Shown here: positions 11,657-24,392 of the stretch, piece by piece
Layout of the letters: each line of letters begins with the position of its first letter
How positions within the stretch are numbered: position 1 is the stretch's first letter
NCBI GenBank assembly: GCA_017459635.1
Contig: JAFUCO010000005.1
Location: 1 to 48,817, forward strand
Direction: 5' to 3'
Source: Blautia sp.
GTDB taxonomy: Bacteria > Bacillota > Clostridia > Lachnospirales > Lachnospiraceae
Length of the DNA stretch: 48,817 nt
The notes under the pieces: model-generated
What the model was told of the DNA's origin: nothing
The model's input: the letters and a program-made list of their open reading frames with translations, nothing else
Database searches by the model: none
Position numbers and translations under genes: made by a program

Positions 11657-11685
11657 AGTATATCAAAGCATCTTCATAATGTCAA
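11657..11685 (-). promoter_or_regulatory. Consensus promoter of tRNA-Leu
   Basis: On the minus strand, TTGACA (11680-11685), a 17-bp spacer and TATACT (11657-11662). The transcript would start about 40 bases before the mature tRNA. Confidence 0.9.
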
Positions 11686-11722: not shown

Positions 11723-11913
11723 GTTACTATTCACGGCCCAGCCGCAAGCGGCTGGGTCTGAGCCCTCCATTCGGAATCTCGCCCTTACGGGCTTCAACGC
11801 CGCTTCGCGGCTGGATTCCTCATGAAGGGCTCAGACCCTGTAAGGAAATATAATCTGCTCTGCTCATGCAAGCATGGCAGAGCAGATTATATTTCCTTAC
11901 GGCCGTGAATAAC
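11723..11913. mobile_element. Complete copy of the structured repeat element (MITE-like)
   Basis: A 191-bp non-coding unit bounded by GTTACTATTCACGGCC on the left and GGCCGTGAATAAC on the right, an imperfect terminal inverted repeat. Inside are three hairpins in order: CAGCCGC/GCGGCTG, a long one from GCCCTCCATTC to GAATCC...GAAGGGC, and one of about 24-bp arms (GTAAGGAAATATAATCTGCT and its complement) around TCATGCAAGCAT. It ends one base before the stop codon of the PilT-like gene. Partial or short relatives occur at 1-108, 29230-29311, 48647-48705 and 48772-48817. Confidence 0.8.
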
Positions 11914-11914
11914 T

Positions 11915-12970
11915 TCAAATGAGACGCTTTTCAAGAGTTTCAGGACTTACAGCGTATAGGAGCGCATTTTCTCTTGTGATTGCTCCTGATCTGTATAACT
12001 TTAAGAGTTCCATATCCATGGACATCATGCCCTGCGAAGCTCCGCTGAAGATGGCGTTTTCGATCTGATGTGTACGTCCGTCACGGATTAGGTTCTGGAT
12101 AGCGGTGTTTACAGTCATCAGTTCGAATACGACTGTCTGCCCGCCTTCCTTCTTCTGTACAAGGCGCTGGGATACAACCGCTCTAAGGACAACCGAGAGC
12201 TGCATTCTTATCTGTGCCTGCTGCTCTGCCGGGAAAATATCCATAATACGGTCGACCGTCTTGGCTGCTCCAGTAGTATGAAGCGAGGAAAGCACAAGAT
12301 GTCCGGTCTCGGCTGCGGTTATGGAAGTCTGTATCGTATCAAGGTCACGCATCTCACCAAGCATTATAACTTCGGGTGCCTGACGGAGTGCCGCACGCAG
12401 CGCCCGAGGGAATGATCTGGCGTCATTCGGGACCTCTCTCTGGCTTATCAGGGACTGTTTATGTTTGTGAAGGTACTCTATAGGATCCTCAACTGTTACG
12501 ATATGTCCCTTACGGTTGGAGTTTATCCAGTCGATGATACAGGCCAGGGTCGTACTTTTACCGCTGCCTGCAGGTCCGGTAACAAGGATAAGGCCGCTCT
12601 TTATCCTGCCAAGTTCCACAATGGACTTGGGTATGTTCAGCTCCTCAGGACGCGGCAGGCTGAATGAGATCATACGAAGAGTGGCGGCAATAGTACCCCT
12701 CTGATAGTATGCATTGCAGCGGAAACGGCTGATGCCCGGTATCGGGAACGAAAAGTCATCGTCGCCGTCCTCATCCAGCTGTGACATATCCCTGTGGGCA
12801 AGCGCATACGCTTCAGTTATAAGCCGCTTTGTATCCTCCGGCTTAAGGATATCTCCCCCAACCGGTATTACTTCACCCTTTACCTTGCATGAAACAGGGG
12901 CGGCAGGAAGTACAAATATATCTGATGCTCCCATCTCGGAGGCTTTTTGCAGGTAGTCTCTTAGTTCCAT
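11915..12970 (-). CDS. pilT: PilT-type type IV pilus ATPase
   Basis: Hexameric secretion ATPase. PilT proteins power pilus retraction at the cytoplasmic face of the platform protein. It has an N-terminal PAS-like part, Walker A GPAGSGKST (near residue 130), Walker B around VIMLGEMRD, the His box HLVLSSLHTTGAAKTVDRI, and the C-terminal NLIRDGRTHQIENAI segment with GMMSMDMEL that is characteristic of PilT rather than PilB. Length 351 fits. It is the last gene of the surface operon and its ATG overlaps the end of the preceding gene by 10 bases. No PilB/GspE extension ATPase is present in the window, so this may be the only motor here, or another may lie elsewhere. Confidence 0.88.
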   Translation of the reverse strand: MELRDYLQKASEMGASDIFVLPAAPVSCKVKGEVIPVGGDILKPEDTKRLITEAYALAHRDMSQLDEDGDDDFSFPIPGISRFRCNAYYQRGTIAATLRMISFSLPRPEELNIPKSIVELGRIKSGLILVTGPAGSGKSTTLACIIDWINSNRKGHIVTVEDPIEYLHKHKQSLISQREVPNDARSFPRALRAALRQAPEVIMLGEMRDLDTIQTSITAAETGHLVLSSLHTTGAAKTVDRIMDIFPAEQQAQIRMQLSVVLRAVVSQRLVQKKEGGQTVVFELMTVNTAIQNLIRDGRTHQIENAIFSGASQGMMSMDMELLKLYRSGAITRENALLYAVSPETLEKRLI

Positions 12971-13404
12971 AGATTTACCATCTCCATCTCAACCACAAGT
13001 CTGTGAGTCTTCCACATCACATGCCCGTCTTCAGAATCTGCAGGAAGAACAGCCGAGCAGTTAAGCGTGTGTTTGCCTTCCTCTTCTGTCCATGAAACTG
13101 TATCGCCTTCAAGTGTCATGCCTGAAGGAAGCTGTCCTGCTATTTTGGTGAGATACTCCTCCCGTGAATCTGTCTCCGACAGAACTTTGGCAGATACAGC
13201 ATCCAGCGACGCAAGGGATTTCTCTGAACGTGCGTTAAGCGTGTAGGTCTCTTCAGTCACGCCTGCGCTTCTTTCACTGAGCGACAGGTCGTTTCTTGTC
13301 ATCATATAAGTAAGCAGACCCAGAATGCTCATACTCAGTATTACAACAATGAGGATAATTGATGCCGCTCCGGGTCCAAATGATAATTTACTCTTCTGCT
13401 GCAT
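12961..13404 (-). CDS. Membrane-anchored pilus-cluster protein, unrecognised family
   Basis: A 147-residue protein with one N-terminal hydrophobic helix (about 14-35, SIILIVVILSMSILGLLTYMM) after a short basic start and a periplasm-type acidic ectodomain of about 110 residues. It lacks a clear prepilin cleavage site, having FGPGAAS before the helix and no Glu at +5. By position, between a pseudopilin-like gene and the ATPase, it probably belongs to the pilus machine. AGGGG lies before the ATG. It starts 2 bases after the upstream stop and overlaps pilT by 10 bases, so translation is coupled. Confidence 0.75.
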   Translation of the reverse strand: MQQKSKLSFGPGAASIILIVVILSMSILGLLTYMMTRNDLSLSERSAGVTEETYTLNARSEKSLASLDAVSAKVLSETDSREEYLTKIAGQLPSGMTLEGDTVSWTEEEGKHTLNCSAVLPADSEDGHVMWKTHRLVVEMEMVNLWN

Positions 13405-13406
13405 TT

Positions 13407-13826
13407 TTATACCCCTCTGTACCAGGAAACAGGAAGCCTGAACAGCTCCACTCCTTCCTGCCTGCCATGGCCTTCAGTCATTTCGCTTACGTAGGCAGAA
13501 ATGCTGCCTTCCCACAGCTGACCGGCCTCCTGCGGCAAAAATGATCCCGTAATCATCAGGGAGTAAGCCCCCATATTCTTTGTCCAGTATCCATGGGATG
13601 ATACAAAATACATATCATCAAGGAGTTCTTCCGGATGCTCGCTTCCATACATGTTCTCGGCAATATTCTGGGCCTCATACAGAGCCTCTGTTTCAACCTG
13701 TGAGCGTATTGCCATGCTTCTCGACAGGGAGAATACCCTTACAAGAACCGTCAGAGTAACCATCAGGAAAAACACGGCTATCAGGATCTCTATCAACAAA
13801 TAATCTGATCTGTTGCGTCTGTTCAT
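13407..13826 (-). CDS. Type IV pilin-like (pseudopilin) protein
   Basis: A 139-residue protein with a prepilin-type N-terminus: short basic leader MNRRNRSD, then YLLIEILIAVFFLMVTL, a hydrophobic helix with Glu at position 5 after the expected cut. The residue before the cut is Asp instead of the usual Gly, so processing by a prepilin peptidase is uncertain. The rest is a small globular domain with several aromatic residues. It overlaps the upstream gene by 4 bases and is followed after 2 bases by the next. Most like a minor pilin or GspI/J-type subunit, without firm family match. Confidence 0.75.
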   Translation of the reverse strand: MNRRNRSDYLLIEILIAVFFLMVTLTVLVRVFSLSRSMAIRSQVETEALYEAQNIAENMYGSEHPEELLDDMYFVSSHGYWTKNMGAYSLMITGSFLPQEAGQLWEGSISAYVSEMTEGHGRQEGVELFRLPVSWYRGV

Positions 13827-14560
13827 GTCATTGCCCCCCTCCCATCATCAGTATTCGGGGAGCCTTTTCCAGCCGCATCGCTGCTGTCATTCTCCTCTGC
13901 AGCGCCCGCTGCATTCGTCGCTGCATCCTTTGCATGTTCTGCTGCAGTTATCACCTTATCATCAGATGCTTTTTCATCAGATGCTTTTTCGTCAAATTCA
14001 TCTTCGTCAGCTGTATCTTCAGATCCTGCACCTGCAGATGCTGAATCTTCCGCAGCTGAATCTTCTATTATATCTGCATCAGGGCTGCACCTGAGTGCAG
14101 TGGTCACCTGGATCATATCGCCGGCAATGTCCATCATATCGACAGTCACCAGCTGCCCCTCTATCTTAGGAGCAAACGCCTTGATTTCGGTTATCTCAAC
14201 ACCATGGTCCGGAAGCATCTCAGTATCCGCACGAGTAAACTGCTCGTACAGCTTACCGTCATACTCATAGAGCCAGGTCACGTACTCTGTGCCGTCTATA
14301 TTCTCGTGCAGAGCAAGAGTCGTAATTCCACCGGCATCTTCGACCTTTACGGATCCGATGGAATCCTGTGCCTTAATCATACTTCTGACATATGAGAACA
14401 GTACACGGTCCGAATTATTCTGATCCATCCGGTCTACTACGCCGCGGTACATCTGCGCTCCAAAAAGCACGAGCATCACGGACATCATCGCAAAGAGTGC
14501 GAGAAGAACAAAGACAAACAGGCCCTGCATGCCATGATGTACTACATTTCTTCTTTTCAT
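13823..14560 (-). CDS. Pilus-cluster membrane protein with acidic Ala/Asp/Glu tail
   Basis: A 245-residue protein with an N-terminal membrane helix (about 11-32, LFVFVLLALFAMMSVMLVLFGA) after a basic and His-containing start, a compact domain of about 130 residues, and a low-complexity tail of about 80 residues rich in Asp, Glu, Ala and Ser with a repeated DEKASD unit. The domain resembles the DUF4860-type proteins found in clostridial type IV pilus clusters; this is from memory and not verified. The tail resembles the acidic regions of the sortase and DUF1002 protein in this window. It starts 2 bases after the upstream stop. Confidence 0.72.
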   Translation of the reverse strand: MKRRNVVHHGMQGLFVFVLLALFAMMSVMLVLFGAQMYRGVVDRMDQNNSDRVLFSYVRSMIKAQDSIGSVKVEDAGGITTLALHENIDGTEYVTWLYEYDGKLYEQFTRADTEMLPDHGVEITEIKAFAPKIEGQLVTVDMMDIAGDMIQVTTALRCSPDADIIEDSAAEDSASAGAGSEDTADEDEFDEKASDEKASDDKVITAAEHAKDAATNAAGAAEENDSSDAAGKGSPNTDDGRGAMT

Positions 14561-14562
14561 GA

Positions 14563-14862
14563 TTACCCTGCTTTCTGTTCTATCACGCGAATGTCCGGAA
14601 AGAGGTTGGACGCAAACGCATCATAAGCCACCAGATACCTGCTGTGGTCATAAGACAGCCCGTAATTCTCCTCCAGATAACTAAGTGTACCGGGATAAGC
14701 TCCTTCAACCGCGTAACATGTAAGAGCTGCCTTCCTGACCGCATCGTGCACCATCTCGGTCTGCGAAGTCTGCTGGGAATTATCCAGATATGTCACCACT
14801 CTGAAAGCTCCGAATAAAAGCAAAGCCAGCAGAAGGACTATTGCGATGTCTCTTTTTCCCAT
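14563..14862 (-). CDS. Small pilin-like membrane protein (99 aa)
   Basis: A 99-residue protein with the N-terminus MGKRDIAIVLLLALLLFGAF, a short basic start followed directly by a hydrophobic helix and then a short soluble domain containing an AYPGTLSYLEENYGL motif. That motif, with regular Tyr/Pro and Leu, resembles the segment after the helix in GspG-type pseudopilins (GxYP...L). There is no Gly-Phe cleavage site and no Glu at +5. It could be a minor pilin inserted without cleavage. GGAGGAGAAG lies before the ATG. It follows the platform protein gene after 94 bases. Confidence 0.72.
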   Translation of the reverse strand: MGKRDIAIVLLLALLLFGAFRVVTYLDNSQQTSQTEMVHDAVRKAALTCYAVEGAYPGTLSYLEENYGLSYDHSRYLVAYDAFASNLFPDIRVIEQKAG

Positions 14863-14956
14863 CTTCTCCTCCTATTATCAGGTAATGAAGCAATACCTGT
14901 ATTCCGTGAGAAAACTCCAGATTTCCCCGGAAAAACTCAGGCTTTTACCGGCTGTT

Positions 14957-16006
14957 TCAGAATGAATTACCAAGAATACCGATCATCGGAAGCATTACAG
15001 AAAGAAGGATTGCCCCGATAACGATCGAAAGCAGCGCTATAAGAGTCGGCTCGATGATTGCAACTATATGGGCAATTCCATCCTCAACCTGTTCTTCATA
15101 CATCTCGGAGATCTTCTGCATTACCTGCTCTTCGCGTCCGGTAGTGCTGCCGATGCGGATCATTCTGTCTTCAAGCCCGCCAAACAGGCCTGACTCAGTA
15201 ACCGCTTCAGCAAAACCCTCACCGCCATTCAGCTTTTCATAGATACCGTTGACCTTTTTGATGATCTCGCTGTTGGAGAGCACCGACGGCATAAGACGGA
15301 AAGCTTCAAGTGTCGGGAAACCGCTCGAAAGCATGATTGAAAGAACACTTGCAACTCTGGAAGCATTGAGCTTCATATCAAGATTACGTACCGGCGGGAA
15401 TATTTTGCGGATGAAGTTCATCAGCTTTTCCCTTCCGGATCCTTTAAGCATCACTATGCTGATCAGTACAGCAATAACCAGTAATGCAACAAGAATAAGG
15501 ACAACCCAGCCGATAACGGAACCCAGGTTTATAAGAACCCTGCCGCTGCCAGTAACGTCACGTCCCATACTGTTAAGGACACGTCTGAAAACGGGAAGTA
15601 CCTTCCATACCATGAGAGCCACGATAACTACGATCATCACACCAAGTACAAGCGGATAGGTAACTGCATTGATAATAGCAGTTTTGATCCTGGACTCTCT
15701 TTCATAATAATCCGAGAGGCCGGACATGACCCTGTCCATCTGCCCCGACTGCTCACCGATTCCTGTAAGCTCGACCATATATTCAGGCCATCTTTCGTCT
15801 TTTTTCAGCGCCTGATACAGCGAACCGGTTTCATTCAGTCCCTGATATGCTGACTGATATACATCCGCATATTTGCTGTCTTTGGATGATTCCGCAATCG
15901 TCTCCATCCCATCATAAAGCGGCAGACTGGCATCAAGCAGCAAGCCCACCTGACTGCAGAAATTTGCAACCTCCGCAGAATCCACCTTGTTCTTTACATC
16001 GGCCAT
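14957..16006 (-). CDS. pilC: Type II secretion/type IV pilus platform protein (GspF/PilC family)
   Basis: The inner-membrane platform of type II secretion and type IV pilus systems, which couples the cytoplasmic ATPase to pilin addition. The protein has two GspF-type helical domains (about 10-120 and 215-330) and three membrane segments (about 120-140, 165-190 and 320-345), the normal architecture. The soluble repeats contain the LYDGMETIAESS and GFPTLEAFRLMP segments typical of the duplicated domain. Length 349 is slightly short of the usual 400. GGAGG lies 7 bases before the ATG. It lies in the surface operon but after a 119-base gap from the transglutaminase gene. Confidence 0.88.
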   Translation of the reverse strand: MADVKNKVDSAEVANFCSQVGLLLDASLPLYDGMETIAESSKDSKYADVYQSAYQGLNETGSLYQALKKDERWPEYMVELTGIGEQSGQMDRVMSGLSDYYERESRIKTAIINAVTYPLVLGVMIVVIVALMVWKVLPVFRRVLNSMGRDVTGSGRVLINLGSVIGWVVLILVALLVIAVLISIVMLKGSGREKLMNFIRKIFPPVRNLDMKLNASRVASVLSIMLSSGFPTLEAFRLMPSVLSNSEIIKKVNGIYEKLNGGEGFAEAVTESGLFGGLEDRMIRIGSTTGREEQVMQKISEMYEEQVEDGIAHIVAIIEPTLIALLSIVIGAILLSVMLPMIGILGNSF

Positions 16007-16125
16007 TTTGATCCTCCATATTTCCCGTCTTCACAGGTGAAAACACCGGAAACCATCTATCCTCTCCCGAGGAACTGCTAAAACTGATCAAAGATTGTCA
16101 GGAACTGTCTCAAAATCACAGGTCC

Positions 16126-16989
16126 TTAGTAAAAACGTTCGATCGTATAGTTATTTGCGACCGCGAGAGCGCCTACTGCTGCTGTCGGGTCAAAGAATTT
16201 GTCTTCACCGTCTACCGTAGAAATAGTCCATGCGTGGTAATATCCATCCACATATCCTATGATAAGCCTGGATGCTATTCCCTGTGAACGCAGCATACTT
16301 ATTGTAACTGCCGAGAGATCCTGGCATATTCCGGTGCGGCTTGCAAATGTGGAATCAACCTCCGGAAGAGTTCCGGCAGCTACCGACTGCGCTTTTGCAA
16401 AATCGTATGTGAAATTTGCGCCAATATAATCACATATCGCATTAAATATCTCTGTCTGTGACGTCATTCCCTCTGTAATCTGGTCAGCCATTGCAACGCA
16501 GGGAGAGTCCTTCGTGTAGCTTACATACTGATTAGGTACGAGAAATGCTGCATTGTCATTCATGCTCGGTATGCTGAGGTCAAGCTTTCCACCTGTAGCA
16601 TACTTTGATCCGGCAACATTCTCAAAAAGCGAAATGCTGTAATTCCCGGGTCCAAACTGGAGCGGGAGCACTTCATAATCCCCGTACGGATTGATGTCAT
16701 ACAGCAGCTGGTTGCCACCGCACATAACCTGAATCTTAAACGCGTTTCCGGTCGGCGAAGCCACCGCCATCATGACATATCCTTTGTATGTATTACTGCA
16801 GTCAAGACGAAGGTTTCCATCCATCCGCACATCAGAACCTGAGGCAACAGGCCATTCAGCATCTGATGAAGCGGCAATGGCTATCCTGATAAGAATTCCG
16901 CAGAATATCAAAAGAGATATTATTCCAATTTTCTTAGAAAGTCGCCTGTAATACATCGAGAACATCCCCATCCCTATTAAGGAAAACAA
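16126..16989 (-). CDS. Secreted transglutaminase-like (Cys protease fold) protein
   Basis: An N-terminal membrane anchor or signal (about 18-42) is followed by a beta-rich domain and a transglutaminase-like core. The catalytic set is visible as GICQDLSAV (Cys), YYHAWT (His) and FFDPTAAV (Asp). Such domains hydrolyse or transfer amide bonds and could modify surface proteins encoded by the same operon, which is inference. The start is uncertain: the longest frame begins at 16989, but Met codons at 16971, 16965 and 16956 are also possible and none has a strong ribosome site. The reading frame overlaps the preceding gene by up to 56 bases, indicating coupled translation. Confidence 0.82.
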   Translation of the reverse strand: MFSLIGMGMFSMYYRRLSKKIGIISLLIFCGILIRIAIAASSDAEWPVASGSDVRMDGNLRLDCSNTYKGYVMMAVASPTGNAFKIQVMCGGNQLLYDINPYGDYEVLPLQFGPGNYSISLFENVAGSKYATGGKLDLSIPSMNDNAAFLVPNQYVSYTKDSPCVAMADQITEGMTSQTEIFNAICDYIGANFTYDFAKAQSVAAGTLPEVDSTFASRTGICQDLSAVTISMLRSQGIASRLIIGYVDGYYHAWTISTVDGEDKFFDPTAAVGALAVANNYTIERFY

Positions 16990-18019
16990 TACCCCAGCTC
17001 ACTTCATTCCCGGTAATATCTGCTACGACTGTCTGGCTGCTGGTATACTCCATCTGGCCAAACTGTACTGAACCATTCTCACTATATGGTACTGCTTTGA
17101 CTACTTCGCCGCCTATTTTAATATCAAAAACGAGTTTGTCGTTTTTGAGCGGCTTAAGAGTAGGTGTTCCGATAGAATCCGCATCTACCTCCTCAGCTTC
17201 AGTTGAAGAAGATGCTGCTGCCTGTGCTGTACCGGCAGACGCTGCACTGCCAGAAGTTGATGAGCCTGAAGCCCCATTAGAAGCTGCAGTGAGTGATGCA
17301 AACATATCAGAGGTGTCAGAGCTTCCGGATGCTGCTGTGCTGCCATCAGTATTAACTACTGTTGCAACGCTGCCCGGATTAACTTCAACTGCTTCCTGAA
17401 TGGCATTAGGATCAAAGTTCTCCTCTTCTTCTGTCTCTTCCTTTGCCTCTTCAGTTGGCTTCGCATTCGGATCCACGCGTCTGTAAGAGAGATTTGCAAT
17501 ACCGAAATCACCCTGAAGGACAGGTGTCCAGTCTCCGTTGCCTCTCATGGGAAGATTCTTAAGAGTGCCATTTCCTGCGGTAAAGACTCCTTCGTCCATG
17601 TGAACGTAGTAGCTCTTGCCAAAGTCAAGTGATACAGGAAGCTTTATGCTCACGCATGTTCCGCCTCCCCACATGAGACCTTCGAGTTCTTCGTCATTGA
17701 GAGGCCTGATGATGTACGCGTCGGTGTCTTCTGCGCTGCAGCTATAGATCTCGCCGTTTTCATCAAACACATGCAGTTCACCGCTGCCGCGGCCGATGTC
17801 CTCACGGGGCAGATACATATCCAGCGAATCGCAGAAATGCTCAGCAGGCATTTTGTCACGCGGATATGTCATGACGTAACCCATATTTTCAGTAAGGTCA
17901 ACTTCAGGTACACCTTCATATGGCTTTTCCGGTCCGAGACCGGCTTTCCATTCTGCCGCCTGTACAGGCGCGGCTGCCAGGGTAAGTGCAATTGCGGTTA
18001 AAAGAAACGCTTTTTTCAT
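16934..18019 (-). CDS. Secreted protein of unknown function with Ser/Ala linker
   Basis: I do not recognise the family. Residues 1-21 form a clear signal peptide (MKKAFLLTAIALTLAAAPVQA, cleaved after AQA-type site). A domain of about 170 residues follows, then an acidic stretch, a low-complexity Ser/Ala/Gly/Thr linker (about 235-275) and a C-terminal beta-rich domain of about 80 residues that ends with VLQATF. No sortase signal or membrane helix is seen at the C-terminus. It overlaps the sortase stop by 4 bases (ATGA), with GGAGAGG ahead, so it is tightly coupled to sortase. It may be a secreted component of the fibre or pilus. Confidence 0.78.
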   Translation of the reverse strand: MKKAFLLTAIALTLAAAPVQAAEWKAGLGPEKPYEGVPEVDLTENMGYVMTYPRDKMPAEHFCDSLDMYLPREDIGRGSGELHVFDENGEIYSCSAEDTDAYIIRPLNDEELEGLMWGGGTCVSIKLPVSLDFGKSYYVHMDEGVFTAGNGTLKNLPMRGNGDWTPVLQGDFGIANLSYRRVDPNAKPTEEAKEETEEEENFDPNAIQEAVEVNPGSVATVVNTDGSTAASGSSDTSDMFASLTAASNGASGSSTSGSAASAGTAQAAASSSTEAEEVDADSIGTPTLKPLKNDKLVFDIKIGGEVVKAVPYSENGSVQFGQMEYTSSQTVVADITGNEVSWGIVFLNRDGDVLDVLQATF

Positions 18020-19437
18020 CTGAACACCTCTCCTTCACGTACTCTTCTGCAGATCAATACAAATCGACCGTCGTCGCGGCGGGTATGGTCACATGTAGTT
18101 AATGTGATGAATTCATCGCCGAACTCCGCTTCAATATCTGTATCATAGATTGAGTTTTCATATACCTCATCAAGCCACATATCGACATCGATCTTGTACT
18201 GCAGGTCTGCATTGTACCGGAAACCTTCTTCATACTCGTCATAGTCTGCAGAATAAAAGGCGGCAAATATTACATAGGTTCCCCGGCGCATCAATGTGTC
18301 GAATGTAACAAGTTTATGTGTTTCCCAGTAGCTCTGTTGTTTAAATGCATCCATGCTCCCGAACATGCTTCCGTTACGCATATGATGTCCGCTGATTACC
18401 AGATTATAGCTTGGTGTGTAGGGATCGCATTTGGAGTCAAGGATTATCTGCCCGTTGTCATTATCTTCTCCAAAGAAATCATGGTGAAGGTAAAACTCGT
18501 TGTCCCTCTGCCGCTGAACCACAGGATAGTCTATCTGTGTATCCTCTATCACCAGCCATCCTATCAGATCATTGTTCATCTCATAGATGGCTTTCAGCTC
18601 CGGCAGTATTTTTTTCTCATCGAGCTTGATCTTCTTCTTAAGATTATAAGGAGTCGCGCCTTCCCGCTGGTTACGGTTAGTTGCCTTCCGGCGTCCCAGC
18701 AGCATCGGTGCGTCATATTCCTCATATTCCGGAATTGTGATCTGACGCCATTTCATTCCCGGAACGTAATCAAGAAGAAAATCCGATATTACGGACTCGT
18801 ATGCTTCCTCCTCAGGTTCCTCTTCCTCATCCTCACCGGATGTATCCTTATCTGAAGTTTTCCCGGAGGATTTTCCGGAAGATTTTTCTTCTGGTTCTTC
18901 TGATGTTTTATCCGATGTTTTATCTGACTCTTTATCCGAAGCCTTATCTGATGCTTTATCCGATTCATCTTCCGAAGAATCATTCTCATCTGAGGATGCT
19001 GATCCCGAAGCCTTACCGGAACTGCTTATGCCGTCCTCTGATTCGTCATCATCCCCGGCATCGCTTTCATCCACATCAGAAGTCTCATCATCACGGGATG
19101 ACCCGCCGGTCCGATCTTCATCAGCTTCAGGGGTGTCTGACTCTGAAGCTTCGTCCTCAGGATCTCCACTGTCTACTCCGTGGTATTCAGCATTTTCGGG
19201 GCGGTCTGCCGGTAAATCCGCCAGATCGCCCCCGTTATTATTTTCTTCGGTATCCGTCCCGGAATGCGTATCCGCGGCTGCCTCTTCATTCAGCACCTCT
19301 GCACGCATCCTGGACAGATCTTCCATAGTATCATTATTTTTCTTTGCAGCCCGTTCATAAAGAATAGGATATGAAAGAGCTATGCCAAACGAAACCACCG
19401 CAACAAGTATCAGAGCTATGCGAGTGCCTCGTTTCAT
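18016..19437 (-). CDS. srtB: Class B sortase with long acidic extracellular linker
   Basis: Sortases are membrane transpeptidases that cut a sorting signal and attach the protein to peptidoglycan or to another subunit. After a basic start and a membrane helix (about 5-25), there is a low-complexity region of about 200 residues rich in Asp, Glu, Ser and Lys (SDKASDKxSDK type), then the catalytic domain. It carries NLVISGHHM (His), TLTTCDH (catalytic Cys near 449) and GRFVLICRR (Arg), with the class B feature LIGWLVIEDTQIDYPV. The acidic spacer is unusually long. The start at 19437 lies 1 base after the adhesin stop with AGGGGTG before it; the upstream ATG in the adhesin frame is not used. It is the expected processing enzyme for the Cna_B protein. 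Confidence 0.93.
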   Translation of the reverse strand: MKRGTRIALILVAVVSFGIALSYPILYERAAKKNNDTMEDLSRMRAEVLNEEAAADTHSGTDTEENNNGGDLADLPADRPENAEYHGVDSGDPEDEASESDTPEADEDRTGGSSRDDETSDVDESDAGDDDESEDGISSSGKASGSASSDENDSSEDESDKASDKASDKESDKTSDKTSEEPEEKSSGKSSGKTSDKDTSGEDEEEEPEEEAYESVISDFLLDYVPGMKWRQITIPEYEEYDAPMLLGRRKATNRNQREGATPYNLKKKIKLDEKKILPELKAIYEMNNDLIGWLVIEDTQIDYPVVQRQRDNEFYLHHDFFGEDNDNGQIILDSKCDPYTPSYNLVISGHHMRNGSMFGSMDAFKQQSYWETHKLVTFDTLMRRGTYVIFAAFYSADYDEYEEGFRYNADLQYKIDVDMWLDEVYENSIYDTDIEAEFGDEFITLTTCDHTRRDDGRFVLICRRVREGEVFR

Positions 19438-19438
19438 A

Positions 19439-22400
19439 TTATGCTTCACCCCTGCGCTTTCTGCCAGATACAAACAGGATCATAACTGCTGCCGCACCGA
19501 TTCCTGCAAATATGAACGGATAGATCGGCAGATCATCGCCAGTCTTCAGCAGGTTGTTCCACAACGGAGTGTTGTAGCCAAACAGGTCAAGCAGCTGTTC
19601 CAGCTCTTCTTCGCCGAGCTCTTCATACGGAGCTGCTGCTCTCGGAACTGCCGGAATAAGACTGTTCGTAATTGTGGTTCCATCAATCAGCTGATAGTAA
19701 CCCGGAACGCCTTCCTCACGGATGGAGTACTCATACTCTACTCCATAGCCATCATCGACCGGTATGTCATCGAAGGAGTATGTCCAGCCTGTAGCAGCTG
19801 AAAGTGTACGTGTATCAACAACTACACCGTCACGAAGGAGTGAAACCGTTACATACGAAGGTCTAAGTCCAGCTGCGTCGCCGCTGTCCTCCCAGATCTT
19901 GATGCCGCTGATCGCCGTAAATCTCGTCGGAGGCGACGGTATCAGCTCATTACGTATGGTAGTTCCGGAATATGTTGTTGAGTAGCCTGCCACAGGATCC
20001 TCGGTAACTGTATACGTTATACGACGTCCGCTTGGATCCGTTGCCGGCATATCCGCAAAGGTGTACGACCATCTGTCACCCCGTGCAGCGATAGATGCAC
20101 TCGCCACTTCAACTCCGTCTGCAAGAAGATGAATTGTGATGTATTCAGGTCTCATACCATGTACATTACTCTCATCTACCCAGAGCTTGGTAATTGTTAT
20201 CGGGATAAGCTCCGGTGCCGGTGTCGGTGTTGGAGCCGGTGTCGGTGTCGGGCCAGGTGTTGGAGTCGGTCCCGGTGTCGGTGTCGGGCCAGGCCTTGTA
20301 GTAGGCGGCGTTGTAACCGGCACGGTCGTCCTCGGTGTTGTTACCGGTACGGTAGTCGGTACTGTTGTCGGCACTGTTGTTGTAACAGTTGTCCTTTCAG
20401 TTGTTGTGGTTGTAGGCCTCTCAGTTGTTGTAGTTCTTCTCTCGGTTGTTGTAGTTGTGGTTCTCTCGGTTGTTGTAGTTGTGGTTCTCTCGGTTGTTGT
20501 GGTTGTGATTCTTTCAGTTGTTGTAGTTGTGGTCGGCGGTGTTGTATAGTTGTTTACAAATGTAACCTCTGCTACAGGAGCGTCTTTTCCGCCAACAACT
20601 GTAACCTTCTTGTCATTTTCTCCGACAAGGGCAACTCCAGCCGGATAATCCTTGTCATTTGTAACTTCGTGGATTGTATACTCTCCCGGTTCAAGTTGTT
20701 CAAGAATCTCAACGCTATTCGAAACACCTCTTGTAATCTTTATACTTTTCTCGCTTCTATAGTTATTCGGTCCGGTTATTAAAAACTTATAAGTCCCATC
20801 TGCCGGAGTAACTGAACTTCCTGCAGGAATGTTCCCGTCTATCGTAACAGTTTTAATTATACGTAATGAACCCAAAACAGCATCATGATGATTAATAATT
20901 ACAAATCCTTTTTCATCATTTCCATTTACAATTCTCGTATATCCATTGGGAACAGGAACCTCATCAACCCTATATGTAACCCCAGGTGTAAGATTTGTAA
21001 AAGTATACTTCCAGGAATTACCGGCATTCAGTTCAACCGGCCCTCCGGTTGCAACATCATTTGCATAAAGCTGAACTGAAATACTGGACGGACGACTTCC
21101 GTCTCTGTTGTTTTCATCATCCCAGCTCTTCTCAACACTAATTGTTAAATACTTGTTAGTAATTGTTGTAACAAGTGTGCCATCAGCAGCTGTAGATGTC
21201 TGCGGTGTCTGCTTTTCATATCCTCTGACTGAAGTAACCTCATCCCAGTGATATGTAATACGTTCACCATTGTGATATTTAGGCAGAGGATCTGTTGTAT
21301 AAGTCCAGCCATTCTGTGCAGATAATGTTGCTGTCAGGATGTCTCCGCTGTCTGCTGTGCTTCTTAGGACTGCTGTGATACTATCCGGGCGACTGTTATA
21401 AGCATTATTGCTGTCATCCCAGTCTTTAATCACTCTCAGAGTTACTGTTTCCGGTTTATAAGAATTCTTGAATACTTTTGGAACTTCACTATCGGATGTG
21501 GGGATCTGTGTATAATTCTTTACATCCTCTTCCTTCCAGATATAGCTGATTTCCTTACCGTCTTTGTCATAACGATTAAGATTTTCAACCTTATAATACC
21601 ATTTATTACTCTCATTAAGATTATAAGTTCCGTATTCCGAAGAACCGGCATACAGAGTAACCTTCAGATTATCAGGACGTTTTCCATCCTGATTCTTTTC
21701 ATCTTCCCATTCTTTAACAACTTCCGCAAAAGTCTTTTCAGGGCTGTACTTGTTGGTAATAGTTGTTTTAACTCCGTTTACTCCCTTGATAACTGTTGTT
21801 TCATTAGTCTCATTGGTCTTTGCATAATTAGGAATGCTCTCTTCACTCCATGTGTATGTAACAGGAACGCCATTATTATAGACCGGAAGGTTGAGTTCCG
21901 TTCTCGCTGACCAATTATTCTTTTCAGTAAGAGTAAACGTTATATCCTCAGTACTGTCAACATCATCATACAGAGTAACCTTAAGCGAATCAGGCCAGTC
22001 ACTGCTGCTGTTTTCTTTATTCGTCTCGTCCTTATGATCCCATACTTTTTTAATCTCTCTGAATGTATACTCAGGTGTATGAGTGTTGGTAATTTCTGTT
22101 CTGTAGCTGTTAAGTTCAGAATAGTCCGGTGCAAAATCAGCGGTGGCAATCTGGTATGCCTTTCCATTATAGGTTATGTCCCGCGGAAGTACTCTCATTC
22201 CGGTAACATTTCCCTGTGTGTCATAGAAAGGTTCCACCTCACGCCAATAATAAGCAGCCTGTGTAGTTCCGTTTTCGGACGTATACAGCGGAAGGTTAGG
22301 CTCATTCCAGTACCAGCCATTGTTTTTATTCAATGTACGGACAATATATGGCTCATATGCAACAGTTCCGGCTGCATCCTTAAAAAGGGCAACATCAATC

Positions 22401-22987
22401 GAATCAGGTCTTGCTCCATCCTGATCATTGTTATCTTCCCATATTTTCTGTACTTCAGCTGATGTAATATGATCCCTCTTCGGGTCTACCACAAGGCTGT
22501 CATTAAATGCGAAAATAAAGAAATCCTGAATGCTCAGTCTCGGATCAGTTGCTTCCCTGATCATTGTCCCAAAATAAATGCCATCGGGAATAAGGCCCTT
22601 CCATTGTCCATTTTCTATTCCGGCAGCAACATCAGGAGATACAGGCAGCAACGTTTTAAGTGCATCTGCCGCTTTCTCGAAAAGTCCCTGTTTCTGTTTA
22701 TCCTGAGGATCCGCAAGGAAATCTGTAAATGCCTTTACATCAGCATATTTTGCTGAAGGTGTTATATTGCCTGGTCCATCAATATCGCCAATACGGTAAA
22801 GGCCAACCTGCCCCTTGAAAGGAGTATCGACCCTTATTGTTACATCGACATCCGCGAACGCATTAACGCTGATGCACAGCAGCGCTGTCAGCATGATGGC
22901 AAAGCCTGCAAGCATTCTTAACAGGCTGCCCGGACGTCCTTTTTTCTCATTTCTCATCTTTTCTTTCACCTGTCCATGATTCATCAT
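19439..22987 (-). CDS. Sortase-anchored Cna_B repeat fibre or adhesin
   Basis: A giant surface protein of about 1180 residues. It has a signal peptide (about 20-46, ending NAFA) and an N-terminal domain of about 110 residues, then at least five Cna_B beta-sandwich modules, each with the W-x-D..N..DGxRPxSIxVxL pattern. A SpaA-like module (GSLRIIKTV) follows. Next comes a Thr-rich linker of TTTTTTER repeats and a Pro-Thr repeat, two more Cna_B modules, and a C-terminal signal LLKTGDD plus membrane helix and KRR tail. The signal is a variant of LPxTG with Leu in place of Pro. Isopeptide bonds usually stabilise such domains. ATGs at 22987 and 22984 both follow GGGAGA; the second has better spacing. 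The gene lies directly before srtB, so they form one unit. Confidence 0.92.
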   Translation of the reverse strand: MMNHGQVKEKMRNEKKGRPGSLLRMLAGFAIMLTALLCISVNAFADVDVTIRVDTPFKGQVGLYRIGDIDGPGNITPSAKYADVKAFTDFLADPQDKQKQGLFEKAADALKTLLPVSPDVAAGIENGQWKGLIPDGIYFGTMIREATDPRLSIQDFFIFAFNDSLVVDPKRDHITSAEVQKIWEDNNDQDGARPDSIDVALFKDAAGTVAYEPYIVRTLNKNNGWYWNEPNLPLYTSENGTTQAAYYWREVEPFYDTQGNVTGMRVLPRDITYNGKAYQIATADFAPDYSELNSYRTEITNTHTPEYTFREIKKVWDHKDETNKENSSSDWPDSLKVTLYDDVDSTEDITFTLTEKNNWSARTELNLPVYNNGVPVTYTWSEESIPNYAKTNETNETTVIKGVNGVKTTITNKYSPEKTFAEVVKEWEDEKNQDGKRPDNLKVTLYAGSSEYGTYNLNESNKWYYKVENLNRYDKDGKEISYIWKEEDVKNYTQIPTSDSEVPKVFKNSYKPETVTLRVIKDWDDSNNAYNSRPDSITAVLRSTADSGDILTATLSAQNGWTYTTDPLPKYHNGERITYHWDEVTSVRGYEKQTPQTSTAADGTLVTTITNKYLTISVEKSWDDENNRDGSRPSSISVQLYANDVATGGPVELNAGNSWKYTFTNLTPGVTYRVDEVPVPNGYTRIVNGNDEKGFVIINHHDAVLGSLRIIKTVTIDGNIPAGSSVTPADGTYKFLITGPNNYRSEKSIKITRGVSNSVEILEQLEPGEYTIHEVTNDKDYPAGVALVGENDKKVTVVGGKDAPVAEVTFVNNYTTPPTTTTTTERITTTTTERTTTTTTERTTTTTTERRTTTTERPTTTTTERTTVTTTVPTTVPTTVPVTTPRTTVPVTTPPTTRPGPTPTPGPTPTPGPTPTPAPTPTPAPELIPITITKLWVDESNVHGMRPEYITIHLLADGVEVASASIAARGDRWSYTFADMPATDPSGRRITYTVTEDPVAGYSTTYSGTTIRNELIPSPPTRFTAISGIKIWEDSGDAAGLRPSYVTVSLLRDGVVVDTRTLSAATGWTYSFDDIPVDDGYGVEYEYSIREEGVPGYYQLIDGTTITNSLIPAVPRAAAPYEELGEEELEQLLDLFGYNTPLWNNLLKTGDDLPIYPFIFAGIGAAAVMILFVSGRKRRGEA
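20212..20540. repeat. Low-complexity DNA coding for Pro-Thr and Thr-Glu-Arg linkers
   Basis: On the coding (minus) strand, successive codons give PTPTPGPTPTP-type repeats (20212-20290) and TTTTTTER-type repeats (about 20370-20540), with 24-base units of the GGTTCTCTCGGTTGTTGTAG type on the plus strand. Both are in frame, so copy-number change would only alter linker length. Such linkers are typical of extended surface proteins and are probable glycosylation targets. Confidence 0.85.
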
Positions 22988-23071
22988 AATTTCTCCCATC
23001 AACTGTATTCAGGTACTGTTAAATTCAAGTACTGCTGCATATGAAACTTGAAACGATCTATAGCTGCCGGC

Positions 23072-23416
23072 TCAGCCTGTTCTGAGTGTATCCAGCCGCT
23101 TTTTCTCCTCCAGCACCTGCTGAAGCTGCTGTGAATAATCCCCCTCCTCTCTTTTCCGGAGGGCATCGGTGAGAACTGATATTTTCTCCTGCAGCGGAGT
23201 CAGCGATAAATTGCTGATTGCCCCCTTTAAAGCATGTGCGTCTTCGAAGGCGGCATTGTAATCCCCGGCTGCAAGGGCCTTCTGAAGCATATCAAAGTGC
23301 TTATCCTCACATGCCACATTCACCAGCCTGATGTAAAGTGCCTCATTGCCCATCAGGCGGGAAAGCCCTTCGTCCACGTTTGCTCCGTATTCTTTTAAAG
23401 CTTCTATCGTAAGCAC
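23072..23416 (-). CDS. HPt histidine phosphotransfer protein heading the surface operon
   Basis: A 114-residue four-helix protein of the HPt family that carries a phosphoryl group between receiver domains. The motif AHALKGAISNL holds the phosphoacceptor His61. A GTG start at 23416 is used, with GGGAGGGA 4-10 bases before it. The N-terminus (YGANVDEGLSRLMGNEALYIRL) resembles that of the second HPt at 30064-30441, so the two are paralogues. It is read in the same direction as the Cna_B gene, 84 bases upstream of it, and an ACATAACAT palindrome precedes it. Its presence suggests that the surface operon is under or connected to phosphorelay control. Confidence 0.85.
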   Translation of the reverse strand: MLTIEALKEYGANVDEGLSRLMGNEALYIRLVNVACEDKHFDMLQKALAAGDYNAAFEDAHALKGAISNLSLTPLQEKISVLTDALRKREEGDYSQQLQQVLEEKKRLDTLRTG

Positions 23417-23772: not shown

Positions 23773-24072
23773 ATGAGCCAGCAGTTTGAAGGAAAAGCCA
23801 TCGGCGTCTTCGAATTTGATAATCTTGTCGCCTGTATCACTGCCCTTGACCAGGCGACCAAAACGTCGGATGTTGTTGTACAGGGTGTCGAGAGGAACCG
23901 TCTCAAAAGCGGAGCCTGCGTTAAGATACGCGGTTCGGTGTCAGATGTACGCGCAGCAATGGATGCGGCGATAATGGAAGGCAGCCGTTATGGCAAACTG
24001 TACGCCAGCACCGTGATAGCATCGCCTGATGCCAGTACGGAAACAGCTATTTCCATGACTATAAATAAATAA
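23773..24072 (+). CDS. Bacterial microcompartment (BMC) shell protein, hexamer type
   Basis: A 99-residue single-BMC-domain protein. BMC-H proteins form the hexameric tiles of microcompartment shells, with pores that pass substrates. The fold is recognisable from AIGVFEFDNLVACITALDQATKT, the VKIRGSVSDVRAAMDAAI segment and the terminal region after VIASPD. CGGAGG lies 7 bases before the ATG. It is followed after 14 bases by a second, different BMC gene. No encapsulated enzymes are adjacent, so the compartment type cannot be named. Confidence 0.88.
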   Translation: MSQQFEGKAIGVFEFDNLVACITALDQATKTSDVVVQGVERNRLKSGACVKIRGSVSDVRAAMDAAIMEGSRYGKLYASTVIASPDASTETAISMTINK

Positions 24073-24086
24073 GGAGGTATTCGAAC

Positions 24087-24392
24087 ATGAAATATCAGGC
24101 ACTTGGTCTGGTTGAAGTACTCGGAAGTGCAAACGCTGTGCGCGTTGTTGATCAGATGCTCAAGACCTCCAGTGTGGAATTCCAGACCTGGCACACAAGA
24201 TGCGGCGGCCATGCAACAGTCTTTCTGGCCGGCGACATTTCCGCGGTCGCGGCAGCTGTGGACAGCATCCGCAATAACCCTCCGTGTGATGTCACGGCAG
24301 CGGCGGTCATTTCCGGCCCATCGGATGAGACATCCCGCGTAGTCTATGATTTCGGAGTTGCAAACGGATTCTTAAGCCCGGTTTCAGAATGA
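24087..24392 (+). CDS. Second BMC shell protein, divergent
   Basis: A 101-residue single-BMC-domain protein: ALGLVEVLGSANAVRVVDQM, then VEFQTWHTRCGGHATVFL and AGDISAVAAAVDSI. The WHTRCGG segment in the region of the pore loops contains a Cys and His, which differs from the first shell protein and might coordinate a metal or cofactor; that is inference. AAGGAGG lies 7 bases before the ATG. It ends the pair and is followed by a terminator. Together with the first it forms a two-gene operon facing away from the surface operon. Confidence 0.88.
   Translation: MKYQALGLVEVLGSANAVRVVDQMLKTSSVEFQTWHTRCGGHATVFLAGDISAVAAAVDSIRNNPPCDVTAAAVISGPSDETSRVVYDFGVANGFLSPVSE

Follow-up and report, generated by a model that had tools for sequence, protein, structure and literature searches.

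The window analysed here, the entire contig JAFUCO010000005.1 (C7; 48,817 bases) of a Blautia sp. genome (Lachnospiraceae) that is 66.8% complete, carries a sortase and a CnaB fibre protein in one row with parts of a type IV pilus machine, and the locus raises the question whether the two halves make up one surface apparatus. The fibre-sortase join is a local addition, whereas the type IV cassette is widespread in related bacteria yet little described: a transglutaminase-like protein (TGL), a short PilC, and four small pilin-like proteins, usually with PilT, are a conserved unit of their own, family-wide. The row occupies positions 23416 to 11915 of the minus strand and consists of eleven open reading frames (ORFs), one more than a preliminary description had counted. 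Of the families named there, HPt, the Cna_B fibre, the sortase, TGL, GspF/PilC, and PilT, all on one strand, were confirmed by scans, as was DUF4860.

23072..23416, minus strand: HPt phosphotransfer protein with GTG start, first gene of the row (PF01627, E 3e-9)
19439..23002, minus strand: CnaB fibre protein of 1187 amino acids (aa), with N-terminal signal-like stretch and C-terminal LLKTGD sorting-type signal
18016..19437, minus strand: class B-type sortase with long acidic/Ser-rich N-terminal region (Sortase Pfam, E 2.4e-10)
16934..18019, minus strand: X361, protein with signal-like N-terminus, conserved in clade relatives
16126..16956, minus strand: TGL (PF01841, Transglut_core, E 8.1e-15)
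14957..16006, minus strand: short PilC/GspF platform protein, 349 aa (T2SSF, E 5.7e-41)
14563..14862, minus strand: P99, pilin-like, resembling type IV pilin, H-type candidate
13823..14560, minus strand: DUF4860 (PF16152), GspJ-like minor pseudopilin (Pfam, E 8.5e-24)
13407..13826, minus strand: P139, prepilin-like, keeping E5, I-type candidate
12961..13404, minus strand: P147, last small membrane protein, without E5, K-type candidate
11915..12970, minus strand: PilT retraction-type ATPase (TIGR01420, 415.7 bits; cut-off 319.1)
11840..11900, minus strand: perfect 24-bp inverted repeat directly after pilT, likely terminator (folding z-score -11)

The overlaps or very short gaps described earlier are present at seven junctions: the fibre-sortase gap is 1 bp (read from sequence), sortase and X361 overlap by 4 bp and X361 and TGL by 23 bp (ATG starts), and from P99 to PilT there follow a 2-bp gap, a 4-bp overlap, a 2-bp gap, and a 10-bp overlap. 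The description did not hold for three gaps of 69 bp (HPt-fibre), 119 bp (TGL-PilC), and 94 bp (PilC-P99), which precede fibre, PilC, and P99, respectively. Fibre-sortase-X361-TGL and P99 to PilT are thus two tightly coupled blocks. Promoter-like sites occur in the window at chance frequency (23, versus 20.4, sd 4.5, in shuffles). The best on the minus strand lie at 11685 (before a tRNA), 23600 (before HPt), and 16288 (inside TGL), the last about 250 bp before PilC and no better than chance expectation, though PilC may have an internal promoter of its own. The gene order is not due to chance, because it is conserved in related genomes.

Distribution of the type IV cassette

DUF4860 was found in 100 of 299 genomes of the family, the window's own included. 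From 101 DUF4860 matches, 80 loci were fetched, leaving out the window itself and 20 others, mostly the weakest. PilC, P99, P139, and P147 are each alongside in 79 loci. TGL is there in 70 and PilT in 60 (same strand, no more than 4.5 kb away), and a sortase, by the same rule, in 2. For a second set, at least 524 PilC relatives from named genomes were ranked by the window PilC and the best 80 taken, a choice biased to near relatives, and the same cassette is present there in records of Lachnospiraceae, Oscillospiraceae, Caproiciproducens, Christensenella, and Acetobacterium. Cultured carriers include Coprococcus comes (L215) and Extibacter muris (L240), whose fetched flanks are short and show no sortase block. 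The 180 fetched loci gave 166 distinct cassette loci, the window not among them, after 14 had been dropped (six that have type IV pilus genes but no cassette, two without PilC or DUF4860, and six duplicates). Between P139 and P147 of L149 (L149:13463-16888) stand ORFs of 540 and 579 aa, two in all and perhaps an insertion.

The sortase/fibre join

When the window PilC was searched against 60 genomes of the window's genus, matches were obtained in 36, its own genome included, with ordinary PilCs among them. The nearest relatives whose contigs extend far enough are L144, L145, and L147; their PilCs are 91, 84, and 70% identical to that of the window, and they share the order fibre-sortase-X361-TGL-PilC-P99-DUF4860-P139-P147-PilT, with PilT cut by the contig end in L144. 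The 1-bp fibre-sortase gap and the sortase-X361 overlap are present in all three, and the order and the 1-bp gap were kept while fibre, sortase, and X361 diverged to 54-70% identity. The contig of a fourth relative, L146, starts inside X361; L146 and L147 are contigs RUG14852 and Blautia sp. RGIG513 (L164, L165). The contigs of the clade relatives begin within the fibre gene or later, and the linkage of HPt is known from the window alone. In the PilC tree (FastTree, midpoint root), the window and L144-L147 form one clade with local support of 0.998, adjoined by L148 and L149, both without the sortase block. Of the 166 cassette loci, 5 have a sortase in the 6 kb upstream, three of them belonging to the window clade and the other two having an opposing gene in between; in 3 loci one is found downstream, always in convergent orientation; the dropped locus L079, with no PilC in reach, has one downstream on the same strand. 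The fibre-sortase-X361 block looks like an addition upstream of the cassette, made, by parsimony, once in a small clade and kept since, because one supported clade has it, the neighbours L148 and L149 are without it, and X361 matches are weak elsewhere.

The fibre protein has seven Cna_B stretches (E 1.5e-117), and its repeats and sorting-type signal are those of a sortase substrate; its C-terminus reads LL[KG]TGD in L144, L145, and L147. The only sortase of the row scores as class B: it reaches 144.6 bits with the class B model TIGR03064, slightly below the cut-off of 153.75, and E 2.5e-33 with a solved sortase B structure, and the TLxTC active site is present as TLTTCD. It is 56-68% identical in the three relatives. 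X361 has no Pfam or NCBIfam match; it is 50-69% identical in the four clade relatives, with weak matches in 5 other genomes of the 299.

Proteins of the cassette

The Cys-His-Asp triad pattern of TGL was identified in 145 of 163 homologues and a lipobox-like pattern in 99 of them. Its nearest solved structure is 3isr (E 2.4e-7), and TGL probably sits outside the membrane. PilC is without about 55 N-terminal residues of GspF, the TIGR02120 alignment starting at position 56. Profile searches against PDB and Pfam gave no firm placement of the small proteins, and structure prediction placed them better. The predicted structure of DUF4860 has a GspJ-like fold; DUF4860 rarely shows a class III leader. 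For P99, no class III leader was found by pattern in any of 165 homologues, no Foldseek match had E under 2, and the ComGC model was not among its matches. P139 keeps E5 by pattern in 139 of 171 homologues, the residue before LFLME being usually S, G, or A, and its pilin matches are weak (E 0.25-0.95). P147 showed E5 by pattern in 0 of 160 homologues and no class III leader. Its place in the row and its lack of E5 agree with the capping subunit characterised in passages of PMC10790768, hence the K-type label as a candidate.

PilT matches the PilT structure 2gsz with E 6.8e-102 and has AIQNLIRD at the position of the AIRNLIRE-type motif. Of 120 cassette PilTs, 117 keep Walker A and 111 an AIRNLIRE-like motif. 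Family scans of the eleven genes revealed PilT only and no PilB-type extension ATPase, and recognised no PilMNO or secretin in the locus. No prepilin peptidase was found in the row by Pfam scan, with two elsewhere in the genome, and no major pilin with class III leader was found in the locus by pattern, only P139 keeping E5.

Motor ATPases of carrier genomes

At thresholds of E 1e-60 for PilB and E 1e-50 for PilT, PilB was found in 125 and PilT in 182 of the 299 family genomes. DUF4860 and PilB are distributed independently (both in 42 genomes, DUF4860 only in 58, PilB only in 83, neither in 116; Fisher p 1). Of the 100 DUF4860 genomes, 99 have PilT and 42 have PilB. Among genomes without PilB, PilT occurs in 57 of 58 with DUF4860 versus 9 of 116 without it (Fisher p 5e-35, uncorrected for descent and incomplete genomes). 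PilT is the usual companion of the cassette where PilB was not found. As a check, PF00437 was searched in 20 carriers of 94% or greater completeness, namely 18 of the 58 plus G299 and G302 (same genus, outside the PilB search), and each has one match of PilT length. Other strong matches are frames of about 380-440 residues or split pieces, which by length are probably CpaF/TadA-like; weaker matches were left unclassified. The cassette looks like a pilus tip complex equipped with a retraction motor but no dedicated extension motor.

In three of the four clade relatives there is, besides the cassette, a separate locus with PilB-PilT-PilC (L150-L152). In the window's genome, PilB-PilT stands at the end of contig C11, and the only T2SSF gene is the window PilC. 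A split machine, with the window PilC serving the C11 PilB-PilT, was rejected because L150-L152 have a 405-aa PilC behind PilB-PilT on another contig, and also because C11 ends just after PilT and the genome is incomplete.

In 6 of the 20 checked genomes (G232, G138, G264, G155, G195, and G057), the CpaF/TadA-like ATPase gene seems split near the same profile position. Inserts of about 20 kb in G232:C1:45939-67922 (L244, L245) and G138:C1:1452389-1471229 (L246) have in common, at one of their ends, a group of recombinase-like genes presumably resembling Tn554-type elements; G138 also has genes resembling DNA methylases by eye.

Flanking surface proteins and regulators

Secreted-looking proteins of at least 900 aa, a limit set after viewing the list and making the p-value therefore optimistic, lie within 4 kb upstream of the cassette in 19 of 166 loci versus 3 downstream (587 and 539 kb scanned), and within 8 kb in 24 versus 4 (1053 and 720 kb scanned). 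With a limit of 700 aa there is little asymmetry within 4 kb (21 upstream versus 15 downstream). Secreted proteins of at least 400 aa number 30 versus 24 within 3 kb and 51 versus 30 within 6 kb, with more upstream sequence available. Proteins with a sorting signal were found within 3 kb upstream in 12 loci, three of them of the window clade, versus 3 downstream (p 0.04). The 24 upstream giants and the window fibre fall into 13 sequence groups. Among the domains of 16 flanking proteins scanned are MBG repeats, vWA with SpaA, sixteen SpaA stretches, DUF7601, InlB-type repeats, and a thioester domain; the scan gave no match for three (L053, L076, and L209). Two loci close to the window clade in the PilC tree (support 0.78), L167 and L169, have an InlB/MBG-repeat gene as their immediate upstream neighbour in the same orientation; it runs off the contig edge and was excluded from the giant-protein count. 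These upstream giants in some other lineages revive a looser form of the joint-apparatus idea. A Clostridiales-1 RNA (135 bits) lies at L056:5821-5993 between a giant vWA/SpaA gene and the cassette.

Regulators were counted by single-sequence searches with Pfam-confirmed seeds within 4.5 kb (650 kb upstream and 575 kb downstream). ECF sigma genes occur upstream in 33 loci and downstream in none, GGDEF in 42 and 9, and BTAD in 23 and 8. Any of the three occurs upstream in 68 loci and downstream in 16, in total in 76 of 166. In L055 and other loci, a trio recurs just before the cassette, upstream of TGL: GGDEF, ECF sigma, and a protein that belongs to no known family. No c-di-GMP riboswitch was detected in the window, around HPt, or in 8 cassette loci scanned.

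Two BMC-domain microcompartment shell proteins (23773-24392, plus strand) are divergent from the HPt gene. Between pilT and tRNA-Leu, a second, imperfect 30-bp inverted repeat (11754-11838) folds very stably (z -7.3) and is perhaps a small repeat element.

Proposed mechanism and alternatives

As the preliminary description proposed, the machine is reduced (PilT, short PilC, tip-like small proteins, and no extension ATPase in the locus), and its sortase/fibre block is truly joined to the type IV part in the window and three relatives of one clade. The best reading, held tentatively and with an inferred functional link, is a PilT-driven tip machine working with wall-anchored adhesins. The row joins two modules. 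TGL, short PilC, P99, DUF4860, P139, P147, and PilT are the first, conserved as a unit, a reduced type IV filament machine whose parts resemble an H-J-I-K tip complex with platform and retraction-type motor; CnaB fibre, class B-type sortase, and X361 are the second, which looks like an upstream addition. PilT acting on PilC would move a short tip-like rod through the cell wall, and the rod may present or pull on an adhesin anchored in the wall. In the window this adhesin would be the CnaB fibre, attached covalently by sortase B, while TGL may trim the surface protein or cross-link (staple) it. A broader proposal, rather doubtful as yet, is that of a pilus tip without a pilus: Clostridia would push out, tension, or pull back giant adhesins anchored in the wall by means of an H-J-I-K-like tip complex and a short PilC, PilT being the sole motor; TGL would trim or staple these adhesins, and control would be of c-di-GMP/ECF type. 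On that broader proposal the window could, just as speculatively, represent a case in which the operon also encodes the adhesin and a sortase for it.

A machine that in general needs both halves is not supported. The check proposed earlier, a search for the same gene order in related genomes, found the type IV part conserved widely and the sortase/fibre part joined to it, in the same order, in the window and three clade relatives; the two halves usually occur apart in relatives, which had been named beforehand as evidence against a joint apparatus. The join is real in the window clade, but the cassette does not in general go with a neighbouring sortase: only 8 of the 166 loci have one no more than 6 kb away. 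Nearly as likely as the best reading, and itself quite possible, is shared regulation only: two independent surface devices would share a promoter in the window clade, the sortase anchoring the fibre and the cassette doing something else, with co-regulation (e.g., on attachment) and no physical cooperation. It agrees with the scarcity of neighbouring sortases, with the regulators adjoining the cassette in 76 loci, and with C. difficile, where c-di-GMP raises both sortase substrates and type IV pili according to passages of PMC4591827. It does not explain so well why the order and the 1-bp gap were kept despite the divergence of fibre, sortase, and X361, or why unrelated giant surface proteins stand at the same flank in other lineages.

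A competence-type pseudopilus, i.e., a DNA-uptake filament of these Clostridia with PilT replacing ComGA, appears improbable from the sequences. The parts are few, the short platform protein matches the ComGB model (120 bits; cut-off 240), there is a run of small pilin-like genes, and ComEC in 294 and ComEA in 297 of the 299 family genomes indicate that the rest of an uptake machine is present; these two genes are nearly universal also without the cassette, however, so that the association cannot discriminate, the ATPase scores as PilT (ComGA model 125.1 bits; cut-off 300), and P99 has no class III leader. A type II secretion-like piston pushing TGL, X361, or the fibre through the wall is more improbable still. 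A GspF-like platform, a GspJ-like fold, I/K-like small proteins, and a secreted enzyme do stand in the same row, but no GspE-type ATPase is in the locus, 58 of the 100 carrier genomes have no PilB-type ATPase at E 1e-60, and, with the lipobox-like pattern in 99 of 163 homologues, many TGLs may be membrane-bound and need no transit of the wall.

An extension ATPase is an expected requirement of type IV filament systems. With PilT as the only recurrent partner motor, a widespread system would test whether PilT alone can drive a machine and whether a tip complex can work without a long filament. If the favoured tip-machine reading is true, DUF4860 gets an assignment and there is a handle on giant-adhesin display by gut and rumen Clostridia; in the window clade, the sortase/type IV link is directly testable in one operon.

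Comparison with known systems

The literature search gave no paper with 'DUF4860' and none combining type IV pili, sortase, transglutaminase, and operon, which is weak evidence since most subscription papers lie outside the search; titles and abstract starts from further searches hold no description of the cassette. A 2011 census of Gram-positive type IV pili has pil operons with pilT and is silent, in the passages concerned, on one without pilB (PMC3244431), and in passages of a 2019 superfamily study PilB-type assembly is treated as essential in all families (PMC6668835). The Vibrio MSHA pilus is, according to PMC9815625, a precedent for PilT aiding extension.

LapA-LapG and CD2831-ZmpI adhesin release offers an analogy only: a protease-type enzyme, a giant adhesin, and c-di-GMP control occur together there (passages of PMC4591827), whereas TGL is Transglut_core, known by family and not as a protease, and the 8 loci scanned have no riboswitch. 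The Com pilus (ComGA-GG) is alike in its small gene set, monoderm hosts, and short platform protein, but the cassette motor is of the PilT family, no ComGA or ComGC was recognised, and TGL is added. With the type IVa pilus the cassette shares PilT with a retraction-type motif and the PilC platform; it differs in being without PilB, which was not found in 58 of 100 carrier genomes. Sortase-assembled or anchored CnaB fibres have the same CnaB repeats, C-terminal sorting-type signal, and adjacent sortase, while the window has a single fibre protein, a class B-type sortase, and a row shared with a type IV machine. The H-J-I-K tip complex (GspH-J-I-K; PilH-J-I-K with PilY1) differs in that P99 and P147 have no class III leader, DUF4860 rarely has one, and no major pilin, extension ATPase, PilMNO, or secretin was recognised in the locus. 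It agrees in the GspJ-like model of DUF4860, in four small genes in a row, and in P139 keeping E5 and P147 being without it, as do I- and K-type subunits in passages of PMC10790768. By analogy, the nearest functional model for the cassette is the Myxococcus PilY1/minor-pilin complex, which PMC7541494 presents as a priming, tip, and cork complex.

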